Source of the DNA: a virus
DNA length: 23,380 nucleotides
Reading direction: 5' to 3' (one strand)
IMG/VR virus record: IMGVR_UViG_3300022752_000406
Location: 1 to 23,380 of that record
Below the pieces are notes generated by a model. It did no database searches. It worked only from the letters and a program-made list of their open reading frames with translations, and was not told the DNA's origin. Below are positions 20,393-23,087 of the stretch, in pieces. The position numbers and the translations under genes are program-made. The first letter of the stretch is position 1. Each line of letters starts with the position of its first letter.

Positions 20393-21055
20393 TTACTTCA
20401 AGATCCGTGGTGGGAACTCTACTCCAGGCACAACTTCATGTTGACGCAAGATTGCACGCATCTGCTCACACTCAAGTTCGCCGTTCGCCTTCGGTGCAAT
20501 TGAGTAGGAATCTGATCGCCGAATATGGTCGCCACATGGGTTGCCTCGGAACGCAACTTTGTAGCCAAGTTTCTTGATCTCCATCCACTGAATCCAATCA
20601 TTCCAAACAACTTGCCGATAAGGGATCGACCACAGAACCGACCGACGAATCAGAGATCCGCCAACCATCGGGTTGTGAGATACATGAAGAATCTGATTAA
20701 AGGCTTCTTCCGTTGCAGCCCAAACTTGTCCGTCTTGCATCCACGGATTAGAGATGATCTTCACATCCTCATCAACATCTGTCAGACCATCTAGCGCGTC
20801 AGGGAACCAGATGTCGTCCATCCCTACTGGCATCACCCAGTCCGAGTTCGCTGCGAACATTGTGTCATTCCAATTATTCCACTTGTGGTGTGGTTGAACA
20901 ATTTCGTGCCAATGCTTCGGCAGATTCAACGGCACAGGTGAAGACACAATCACCTCATCAGGTTCAGTGTTCAACTTCTCCATCTGCTCAATGAACTGTC
21001 CACCGAACCGATCCCAGAAGTCACCCCAAACTGTGACACACACAGCGATGCTCAT
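20393..21055 (-). CDS. Putative GT-A-type glycosyltransferase
   Basis: The 220-aa protein has a GT-A-like layout: a nucleotide-binding first strand (SIAVCVTVWGDFWDRFGGQF), DEVIVSS (33-39), and a metal-binding acidic motif in VMPVGMDDIWFPDAL (74-88, Asp80, Asp81). Residues near the end (CGDHIRRSDSYSI) are plausible acceptor-side loops. It would transfer a sugar from an activated donor. It is the third glycosyltransferase in a row before the connector gene. Acceptor is unknown: virion protein, cell-wall glycan or DNA. Confidence 0.65.
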   Translation of the reverse strand: MSIAVCVTVWGDFWDRFGGQFIEQMEKLNTEPDEVIVSSPVPLNLPKHWHEIVQPHHKWNNWNDTMFAANSDWVMPVGMDDIWFPDALDGLTDVDEDVKIISNPWMQDGQVWAATEEAFNQILHVSHNPMVGGSLIRRSVLWSIPYRQVVWNDWIQWMEIKKLGYKVAFRGNPCGDHIRRSDSYSIAPKANGELECEQMRAILRQHEVVPGVEFPPRILK

Positions 21056-21056
21056 T

Positions 21057-21710
21057 TCAATCCCAACTTAGATCTAGTCGGCGTTGCAGATCCCATTGAC
21101 CTGCATCAAGTCTTGCGTTGCGAAGTTTGAACAGTTCAAGATTCGATGCGAAAGTTTGCGCGTTCTTACCTTGCAACGCCACATCTGACAGAAGTGTTGA
21201 AGAGTTGTCGTGCATGATGATGTCTTGTGACTTGCGAATAGTTTTGCCCATCCGCACAGCGCGACGCTCATAATCGTTGTCTTCAAAGTATGCGGGATGG
21301 AATGCTTCGCAGAACAGTCCGACATCTTTCACAACTTCGGATCCGATCCACGCGCAAGCCCACTCTGGTGAACCAGTGAGATGAATCTCATCTCGGTCAC
21401 ATCCGTTCCAGAACTGTTCAAGTTTGTCTGGCAGGAACCAGGCGTCCGAGTTGAGAAGAATCCAACCAGAAGCAAACGGTGTCATCTTGATACCAAGATT
21501 CCATGATGTAGCCACACCAAGGTTGCTCGGCATATCCATGATGTAAGTCTTGCCGTGACGACTATGTCGTGGCATCATCAAACAGTCCTCTTCGATCTTG
21601 CCTCCGTTGTCGATGATGATGATCTTTTCGACTGGGAAGTCGAGCGAATCAATGCACCGTTCAAGTAGGTCGTATCGGTTGAGAACTGGGATGATTACGA
21701 CCGGCACCAT
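21057..21710 (-). CDS. Family 2-like glycosyltransferase
   Basis: The 217-aa protein has a typical GT2 N-terminus (VVIIPVLNRYDLLERCIDSL, 4-23), EKIIIIDNGG (28-37) and the catalytic acidic segment GWILLNSDAWFLPDKLE (82-98, Asp89). A late HPAYFEDNDYERRAVRMG region (about 157-174) matches the Asp-Glu-rich loop of GT2 enzymes. The start is at the ATG at 21710, with AAGGAG upstream and a 16-base overlap with the GT-B gene; a longer frame to 21740 has no better site. Donor and acceptor are not inferable. Confidence 0.8.
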   Translation of the reverse strand: MVPVVIIPVLNRYDLLERCIDSLDFPVEKIIIIDNGGKIEEDCLMMPRHSRHGKTYIMDMPSNLGVATSWNLGIKMTPFASGWILLNSDAWFLPDKLEQFWNGCDRDEIHLTGSPEWACAWIGSEVVKDVGLFCEAFHPAYFEDNDYERRAVRMGKTIRKSQDIIMHDNSSTLLSDVALQGKNAQTFASNLELFKLRNARLDAGQWDLQRRLDLSWD

Positions 21711-22990
21711 GCGGACAACTCCTTCATAGTCGGCTTCCAATGCTGCTCAAATACCGTGTCGGCTCCATACCCTTGCGCATGGCTAATAGCCTGCTCAGAA
21801 CGCCCTCTAGGCGCGTCATACGCCGACTTGAGAGCATTCACGATGTCAGGCACCGACGGTGTGAAGAACCATGACTTCTGAGCCGCATCCCACCATGGCT
21901 GACCTTCAACCGTCCAGCCGTCGCCGACCAGCTCAGGTTGTGCAGTGAAGTTTGAGACAATTACTCGACATCCACACGCTTGCGCCTCAATGACAGGAAT
22001 GCCGAACCCTTCACCCATCGAGCAAGCCAACAGAACATCTGACGCCGTGTACATCGCAGCCATCAGGTTCTGTGGCATACCGTGCCGATATGCGTACTGG
22101 TCGACAATCTTGTATTTGTCTGAACTGACTCCGCAAGCGTCAAGAAGTTGAATCAGATTGATACCAGACATCGCACCCATCGGTTCGGTGTAGAGATACA
22201 GCACCGCATCAGGATGATCTTTCGCAAAGATTGAATACGCAAGCAGATTCTCTGCCCATGCCTTACGCGCAGGCTGACTGCCTTTGTTCGTTGCGACCAT
22301 TGAGATGACGAATCTGTCTTCTTCCCATCCCATAAACTTACGGCCAGTCATCTTGCCACCATCAGCCAACGCAACAGTCTCGGTCGGTTTGAACACAGGT
22401 TCAATCGCGTGAGGAGCGTAGAGATGATCGATGCCTGCGATGTTCAACATTCGTGAACCAAACTTTGACATCGCGATCGGTTTCACATTCTCACGCGCAC
22501 ACCACTCCAACACTTCTGGCGGTGCAGGCTGATGATCAATCGGAACCCATGACGCGATGTTCTTCAACTCTTTCAAAGAATCCGACTTCAACACCCACAC
22601 ATCAAACAAAGTCATCAACAATGTTGGTGTTGAAAGATCTTGGCTTGACCATTCCATTGTGTGCGCAACCACAACATCGTCGCTGTATGTTGCGAGTCCT
22701 TGTGGATACATTTTGAAACCATTCCAAGTCGATACCGAACCCGCAAGTCCGTACATCGCGTGAACTGCTATTTGGTGGTCTTCTTTCGCGAGCCTTTGGA
22801 TGACTTGCGCGGTTTGCTGACCGTATCCGGTGGCAGCCCAAGGTGCGTTTGAATACCAGAGGACTCTGAGTCGGTCGGGATTGGTTGGTCTGATGTTTCC
22901 AAGTAGTGCGCTACGCCCGCTCGGACTAATCGCTCCGCTAACGCTCCTGGCATCTCGACTGGTATGCCTTTTACTATTACTGTTTCCCAC
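21695..22990 (-). CDS. GT4-like GT-B glycosyltransferase with nested start
   Basis: The 431-aa protein has the GT-B fold pattern: first strand LRVLWYSNAPWAATGYGQQT (41-60), SWVPIDHQPAPPE (147-159), and the donor-binding signature SMGEGFGIPVIEAQACGCRV (324-343) with the E-x7-E pair (Glu327, Glu335). No ATG, GTG or TTG codon lies between residue 1 and the conserved first strand, so the GTG at 22990 is the only canonical start. That start shares one AGGAGG with the 74-aa gene beginning two bases earlier, which lies wholly inside this gene in another frame. Residues 1-39 look unconserved. Likely acts on virion or cell-surface sugars. Confidence 0.85.
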   Translation of the reverse strand: MGNSNSKRHTSRDARSVSGAISPSGRSALLGNIRPTNPDRLRVLWYSNAPWAATGYGQQTAQVIQRLAKEDHQIAVHAMYGLAGSVSTWNGFKMYPQGLATYSDDVVVAHTMEWSSQDLSTPTLLMTLFDVWVLKSDSLKELKNIASWVPIDHQPAPPEVLEWCARENVKPIAMSKFGSRMLNIAGIDHLYAPHAIEPVFKPTETVALADGGKMTGRKFMGWEEDRFVISMVATNKGSQPARKAWAENLLAYSIFAKDHPDAVLYLYTEPMGAMSGINLIQLLDACGVSSDKYKIVDQYAYRHGMPQNLMAAMYTASDVLLACSMGEGFGIPVIEAQACGCRVIVSNFTAQPELVGDGWTVEGQPWWDAAQKSWFFTPSVPDIVNALKSAYDAPRGRSEQAISHAQGYGADTVFEQHWKPTMKELSAWCRS

Positions 22991-22992
22991 AT
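22768..22992 (-). CDS. 74-aa head protein nested in the glycosyltransferase gene
   Basis: The frame encodes MWETVIVKGIPVEMPGALAE, then RLVRAGVAHYLE and a Lys/Arg-rich tail (KPRKSSKGSRKKTTK). Short proteins with this 'V-K/R-G-x-PVEMP-x-ALA-x-RLVRAG ... basic tail' pattern are common just after capsid genes in actinophages. AGGAGG is three bases from its ATG (short spacing). It is wholly embedded in the glycosyltransferase frame. Both look genuine by sequence pattern. Confidence 0.7.
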   Translation of the reverse strand: MWETVIVKGIPVEMPGALAERLVRAGVAHYLETSDQPIPTDSESSGIQTHLGLPPDTVSKPRKSSKGSRKKTTK

Positions 22993-23008
22993 GATCCTCC
23001 TAAGAATA

Positions 23009-23059
23009 GTGCAGGAATAGATAAAGCCTCGGCAAGTCCTGCACGACCGACCGAGGCTT
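23009..23059 (-). promoter_or_regulatory. Possible H-type pseudoknot/terminator leader
   Basis: Stem 1: AAGCCUCGG (23051-23059) with CCGAGGCUU (23024-23032), 9 bp. Its 18-nt loop contains GUGCAGGA (23037-23044), which pairs exactly with UCCUGCAC (23009-23016) downstream, giving an 8-bp stem 2 with linkers of 6, 4 and 7 nt, a regular H-type pseudoknot. It ends 7 bases before the AGGAGG used by two overlapping starts. Stem 1 plus UUAUCUAUU could also act as a terminator after the capsid gene. Confidence 0.6.
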
Positions 23060-23069
23060 AATCTTAGTC

Positions 23070-23087
23070 ACAGTCCTTGCGGACTGC
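23070..23087 (-). terminator. GNRA-capped hairpin after the capsid gene
   Basis: A 6-bp CAGUCC/GGACUG stem plus an outer G-U, closed by a GCAA tetraloop, lies 30 bases after the major capsid stop. No U tract follows, so it may protect the mRNA 3' end or act jointly with the next structure. Confidence 0.45.

Follow-up and report, generated by a model that had tools for sequence, protein, structure and literature searches.

The shared start site and its two products

The window analysed here comprises an entire IMG/VR virus record (23,380 bases). Read directly, its minus strand from 23001 to 22987 is AGGAGG ATC ATGTGG, an arrangement in which two start codons in different frames follow one Shine-Dalgarno (SD) motif (Table 1). 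The reading given in the preliminary description was confirmed on the sequence: the ATG at 22992 opens a small gene of 74 aa at a spacer of 3 nt from AGGAGG, and the GTG at 22990 opens a glycosyltransferase (GT) gene of 431 aa at a spacer of 5 nt. Only one SD-like motif is found near the starts, AGGAGG in the window and GGAGG, AGGAGG or AAGGAG(G) in its relatives. The two genes overlap by 223 nt. The small gene had been described as nested in the GT gene, which holds strictly in clades B and C of the relatives introduced below and not in the window, where its first two bases lie outside the GT gene. The GT frame was also said to have no other ATG, GTG or TTG before the first beta strand (residues 42-48), and this is borne out: the next such codon is codon 79, inside the fold, so the GT needs either GTG 22990 or some non-standard entry.

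Table 1. Features of the shared start region in the window (DtoStart, aligned SD spacing)
Feature	Positions	Strand	Basis or remark
Candidate pseudoknotted leader	23009..23059	(-)	Hairpin AAGCCTCGG...CCGAGGCTTT; loop GTGCAGG pairs with CCTGCAC just before the SD
Shine-Dalgarno AGGAGG, common to both starts	22996..23001	(-)	Sequence; motif in all four start arrangements
Small-gene start ATG	22990..22992	(-)	DtoStart 11
GT start GTG	22988..22990	(-)	DtoStart 13; GTG in 134/134 relatives
Small gene, 74 aa, stop TAG	22768..22992	(-)	Open frame, fold model, selection tests
TAG stop of small gene	22768..22770	(-)	Maintained via rare GT codons ATA/GTA
GT gene, 431 aa, GT-B type	21695..22990	(-)	PF00534, PHROG 2170, AlphaFold

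The earlier identification of the large product as a GT-B glycosyltransferase stands. It matches PF00534 at 44.8 bits (cutoff 26.4) as a GT-B, GT4-like enzyme and PHROG 2170 at E 1.5e-29, and an AlphaFold model built from an alignment of relatives (pTM 0.82) has a confident two-domain fold from residue 42 on, with the first beta strand at residues 42-48. Residues 1-34, which are encoded over the folded domain of the small gene, have pLDDT below 50 and are predicted to be disordered. The small protein, 74 aa in the window and 72-118 aa across the relatives, was modelled from a corresponding alignment as a confident beta-beta-alpha-beta domain (residues 1-30) with a low-confidence, unstructured tail; a disordered linker leads into a conserved basic tail, KPRKSSKGSRKKTTK, with the consensus KPRKSSKGSRKKxTK. 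The last ~50 nt of the overlap encode this basic tail together with the first helix of the GT (residues 55-69) and its surroundings. Except in those ~50 nt, the models predict that the folded part of each protein is read where the other is disordered.

Family searches of the small protein gave no Pfam match and no significant PHROG match, and the best Foldseek hits were to a phage protein without a name (E 0.02) and to a head-to-tail connector (E 0.32). Its designation as a head protein was not upheld, since with no family match it is only the position beside the major capsid gene that suggests such a role. The best PDB match, to archaeal GINS at E 1.5, was too weak to use. Standalone copies of the small gene were absent from the INPHARED phages, from the best 80 viral-contig matches inspected and from the records of overlap-free relatives; two weak matches in overlap-free relatives (E 9e-5 and 9e-4) involved the profile tail only and were read as the shifted frame of the GT.

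Start geometries and constraint among relatives

Searching viral contigs with the GT returned 294 encoding stretches, and reading covered the best 80 of these (81-98%). From the best 80 of 294, 78 distinct overlaps were scored; each has ATGTGG and an open GT frame, the small frame is always exactly 74 aa long, and the third frame contains 2-6 stops. Wider searches, in fragmentary contigs of uncultured phages, extended the set to 134 distinct overlaps with about 56-98% amino acid identity in the GT. Both frames are open in every one, the GT frame opens with a GTG no more than 7 nt from the small start, and the distance from the small core to the WYSN motif of the GT is 122 nt throughout, with no indels in the overlap. 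Over the first 40 core codons of the small gene the third frame has a mean of 2.6 stops, and synonymous shuffles keep the GT frame open in ~15% of cases (17% for the window), as against the 134/134 observed.

Four start arrangements are represented. Clade A, which includes the window, has ATGTGG, with the small start at 0 and the GT GTG at +2, and clade D (e.g. L379 and L382) has GTGTGG, with GTG for both starts; across A and D the small gene starts with ATG in 72/73 and with GTG in 1/73. Clade B (n=57) has GTGAATG or GTGGATG, so that the GT GTG stands 4 nt upstream of the small ATG, and in the GTGAATG form a TGA closes the small frame immediately upstream. Clade C (n=4) has GTGNNNAATG, where the GT GTG precedes the small ATG by 7 nt. 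With the small core codon as reference, the GT GTG occupies -10 in 130/134 (clades A, B, D) and -13 in 4/134 (C), whereas the small start is at -12 or -6; these positions show the GT start to be fixed and the small start to be mobile. The GT-frame GTG underwent 0 changes on the trees of clade A and clade B (n=55 for the latter), and because in clade B it lies outside the small gene, its invariance is explained by the GT alone. Clade B is also variable at the other end of the small ORF, which stops after 72, 90, 97, 104 or 118 aa (L220, L288, L298, L300, L307, L317 and others), a natural series of tail lengths.

Spacing was expressed as DtoStart, the aligned SD spacing measure of PMC9841429, whose optimum of about 13-14 comes from E. 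coli and may differ in the phage host. By this measure the GT GTG is at 12-14 in 133/133 scored sequences from all clades, and at 13-14 in overlap-free relatives; the small start is at 11, 12, 16-18 or 20. The small/GT pair is at 11/13 in A, 12/14 in D (GUGUG) and 17/13 in much of B, and the small ATG of clades B and C, 4-7 nt 3′ of the GT GTG, has a long spacer of about 9-12 nt.

The preliminary description proposed an alignment across related phages with a test of synonymous sites, and this found, besides the two open frames in 134/134, suppression in the GT frame. Nucleotide changes sit on the third base of the small frame to about small codon 43 and on the third base of the GT frame thereafter. 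In the first part of the clade A overlap pN/pS is 0.15-0.5 for the small frame versus ~3 for the GT frame, and after ~43 codons the relation reverses, with GT-frame values of 0.06-0.33 from GT codon 41 on (the sequence pairs used for pS share ancestry and so are not independent). GT codons 2-23 show little constraint in the GT frame. Relative to the gene body, synonymous change in GT codons 61-76 falls to 0.19 in clade A and to 0.29 in clade B, below every body window of the same length (0/266 as low in each clade). At codons 77-97 the ratio is 1.01 (95% 0.95-1.06) in clade A, where the small gene has already ended at 74 aa, and 0.61 (0.55-0.69) in those clade B members with a 97-aa small gene; at codons 98-118 the rate is at least 1 in both clades. 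The return to a normal rate past clade-specific small stops shows that suppression tracks the small ORF and not the GT.

The stop codon itself leaves a mark on the larger gene. In clade A the TAG needs an A as third base of a GT Ile or Val codon, and A is present in 73/73, in a gene whose body uses ATA for 5.5% of Ile and GTA for 4.6% of Val codons; on the clade A tree this codon underwent 11 Ile/Val changes, and in none did the third base change. At synonymous sites of the small gene, a T that would create a stop in the GT frame occurs in 0/672 cells versus 28% in the gene body. Counted by column the avoidance is 0/5 versus 13/22 (p=0.04), and T is generally rarer in the overlap (6.5% at non-risk sites).

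These substitution patterns show both frames to be under purifying selection, as befits an overlapping, dual-coding gene pair, and the suppression that follows the stop of the small gene bears out the claim that both products are genuine. The accompanying picture of equal constraint on both frames over 225 bases has to be replaced. As judged by the comparisons above, constraint rests first on the small frame and then on the GT frame, and true double constraint is found mainly in the last ~50 nt.

Proposed initiation from a single Shine-Dalgarno motif

We propose that ambiguous initiation from a single SD very probably drives the two overlapping genes. A 30S subunit anchored on AGGAGG would bring into the P site either the AUG of the small gene or, two bases on, the GUG of the GT, and both proteins would be made from one mRNA, with local sequence setting their ratio. 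The GT would use the weaker codon at the better spacing, and the small gene mostly AUG at an off-optimal spacing; in clades A-C a weaker GT codon so placed is what might be expected if both products must be made. The proposal of two starts from one SD draws support from the invariant GTG and from clade-specific starts that keep the same frames. We infer from these features that initiation is actually split between the codons at some ratio, in which the upstream hairpin might have a role.

In E. coli, AUGUG and GUGUG sites start two overlapping ORFs, depending on SD spacing (PMC9841429). Reporters with AUGUG at DtoStart 11/13 gave product only from GUG, and both products appeared only at 12/14 (PMC9841429). 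The window has 11/13 in place of the 12/14 at which E. coli best uses both starts; if the E. coli rules applied, initiation of the small gene in clade A would be weak, although the host may differ. The share of the small gene in clade A may thus be low or dependent on the host ribosome.

Other routes to the two products have to be weighed against this evidence. A programmed -1 frameshift, put forward in the preliminary description, would have ribosomes start only at the small ATG and some of them slip to yield a fusion of the small N-terminal domain to the GT. The GT frame is indeed -1 relative to the small frame, and a fusion would supply the GT with a folded N-terminal domain; however, an X XXY YYZ heptamer is conserved nowhere in the overlap (at any site ≤3/73 in clade A and ≤2/57 in clade B), so that such a shift lacks a conserved slippery site. 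The GT frame is moreover open back to an invariant GTG, superfluous for frameshifting; this GTG precedes the small ATG in clades B and C and has its equivalent at the start of the GT in overlap-free relatives. Frameshifting is on this evidence very improbable. Only a slim chance attaches to the reading in which both proteins are genuine and the GT is started elsewhere, at a near-cognate codon (ATT at codon 21 or ATC at codon 33) or by internal entry before the first beta strand. Weak GT-frame constraint on codons 2-23 and the disorder modelled for residues 1-34 would suit it, yet neither clade A nor clade B conserves a near-cognate codon ahead of the first strand, whereas GTG at codon 1 is at 100%. 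The best near-cognate conservation is 60% ATH at GT codon 43, inside the strand, and a GT frame free of stops back to the GTG in 134/134 compares with ~15% per sequence expected by chance.

One might also suppose that the GT alone is genuine, the small ORF being a side effect of its reading frame, given that the small protein belongs to no Pfam or significant PHROG family, that the gene is missing from overlap-free relatives and that GUG is favoured at the spacing of the window by E. coli rules (PMC9841429). We hold this to be extremely improbable. The low small-frame pN/pS (0.15-0.5) against a GT-frame value of ~3 over the first part of the overlap, the rare codons that maintain the TAG and the confident predicted fold of residues 1-30 all speak against it, and GT synonymous suppression that follows the clade-specific stop rejects the small ORF as annotation noise. 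Start choice from one SD is accordingly left as the remaining option and, on comparative grounds, the best reading, because neither a slippery heptamer nor an alternative start is conserved. A more elaborate version, which we consider rather unlikely and offer tentatively, is that the site is a tuned two-outcome device in which the weak GT codon, at the best spacing, competes with a small-protein start that is strong or placed differently to give a set ratio, a conserved pseudoknot-like leader sets or regulates that ratio, and one phage group has rebuilt the whole in four geometries.

Origin, known systems and neighbouring genes

Relatives L203-L216 (54-56% identity) and L217 are without the small gene, and their GT opens at a GTG close to the first strand; in L203, L206 and L217 the start context is CTGC-GTG-AA, as in clade B. 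The GT of phiPsal1 and its kin (~42%) likewise begins near the first strand. The same GT family directly follows the major capsid gene in Pontimonas phage phiPsal1 (42% identity) and Microcystis phage Mae-JY09 (37%), where no small gene overlaps it and no more than about 14 codons separate its start from the first beta strand. Since the GT of the closest overlap-free relatives opens at the equivalent GTG and no small gene is present there, the overlap is, on this distribution, lineage-specific. Probably the small gene became superimposed on the 5′ end of the GT gene, which lengthened the GT by about 40 disordered residues at its N-terminus. In the simplest history it was placed over, or born on, that 5′ end once, before clades A-D split.

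Several known systems resemble parts of this arrangement. E. coli pqiA and tamA (PMC9841429) likewise have an SD followed by two starts that differ in frame and lie two bases apart, and in pqiA a single SD serves both, as here; clade A corresponds to AUGUG and clade D to GUGUG. In E. coli, however, the second ORF is a peptide of 10-15 aa of unproven function, whereas the phage pair consists of full genes (72-118 aa and ~431 aa) under selection in >100 phages. The Thermus rnpA-rpmH pair (AUGGAUG, one GGAGG), described as the sole earlier bacterial case (PMC9841429), has starts 4 nt apart in different frames, which is the geometry of clade B (GUGAAUG/GUGGAUG). It is a bacterial housekeeping pair that uses AUG for both starts, whereas in the phage pair the larger gene starts with GUG and four geometries occur. 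The phage lambda S holin and antiholin, as described in PMC9841429, are also two phage proteins with starts a few bases apart, but those starts share one frame and have two SD motifs, unlike the different frames and one SD found here.

The 2022 paper on initiation in two frames from one SD offered one earlier bacterial pair, Thermus rnpA-rpmH, and short E. coli peptides of uncertain value. The present locus is a natural case in which evolution kept both products, rearranged the start codons more than once and held the start of the larger gene near the best spacing. Its 134 natural variants are a ready set in which to test the choice that ribosomes make between adjacent starts, and it shows that conserved phage proteins can stay hidden when gene callers assume a single gene at such a start.

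Upstream of the shared start, the capsid-side gene stops at 23087 (minus strand); in relative L014 the gene at this position is a major head protein (PHROG 10, E 5e-67). Between the capsid gene and the shared start sits the candidate RNA pseudoknot, in which a loop xYGCAGG pairs over 6-7 bp with CCUGCRx. The candidate leader is also found upstream of the GT start in L203-L217, L219-L221 and L240-L378. Loop and partner covary, as GUGCAGG/CUGCAC in clade A, ACGCAGG/CCUGCG in clades B and C and GCGCAGG/CCUGCGU in the overlap-free relatives, and the stem sequence also varies between clades. An Rfam search of the leader returned no match. In phiPsal1 (L139), positions 2552-2633, just before the major capsid gene, gave an Rfam tmRNA-family match of 54.6 bits that covers only 82 bases of the 374-position model. 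Downstream of the GT, two more glycosyltransferase-like genes lie at 21057-21740 and 20393-21055 (minus strand; GT2 family, PF00535; PHROG 9549). As listed, the GT2 frame starts at TTG 21740 and shares 46 nt with the end of the first GT gene; its true start may be further in. The stretch from the capsid gene to the head-tail connector gene thus contains three glycosyltransferase-like genes.
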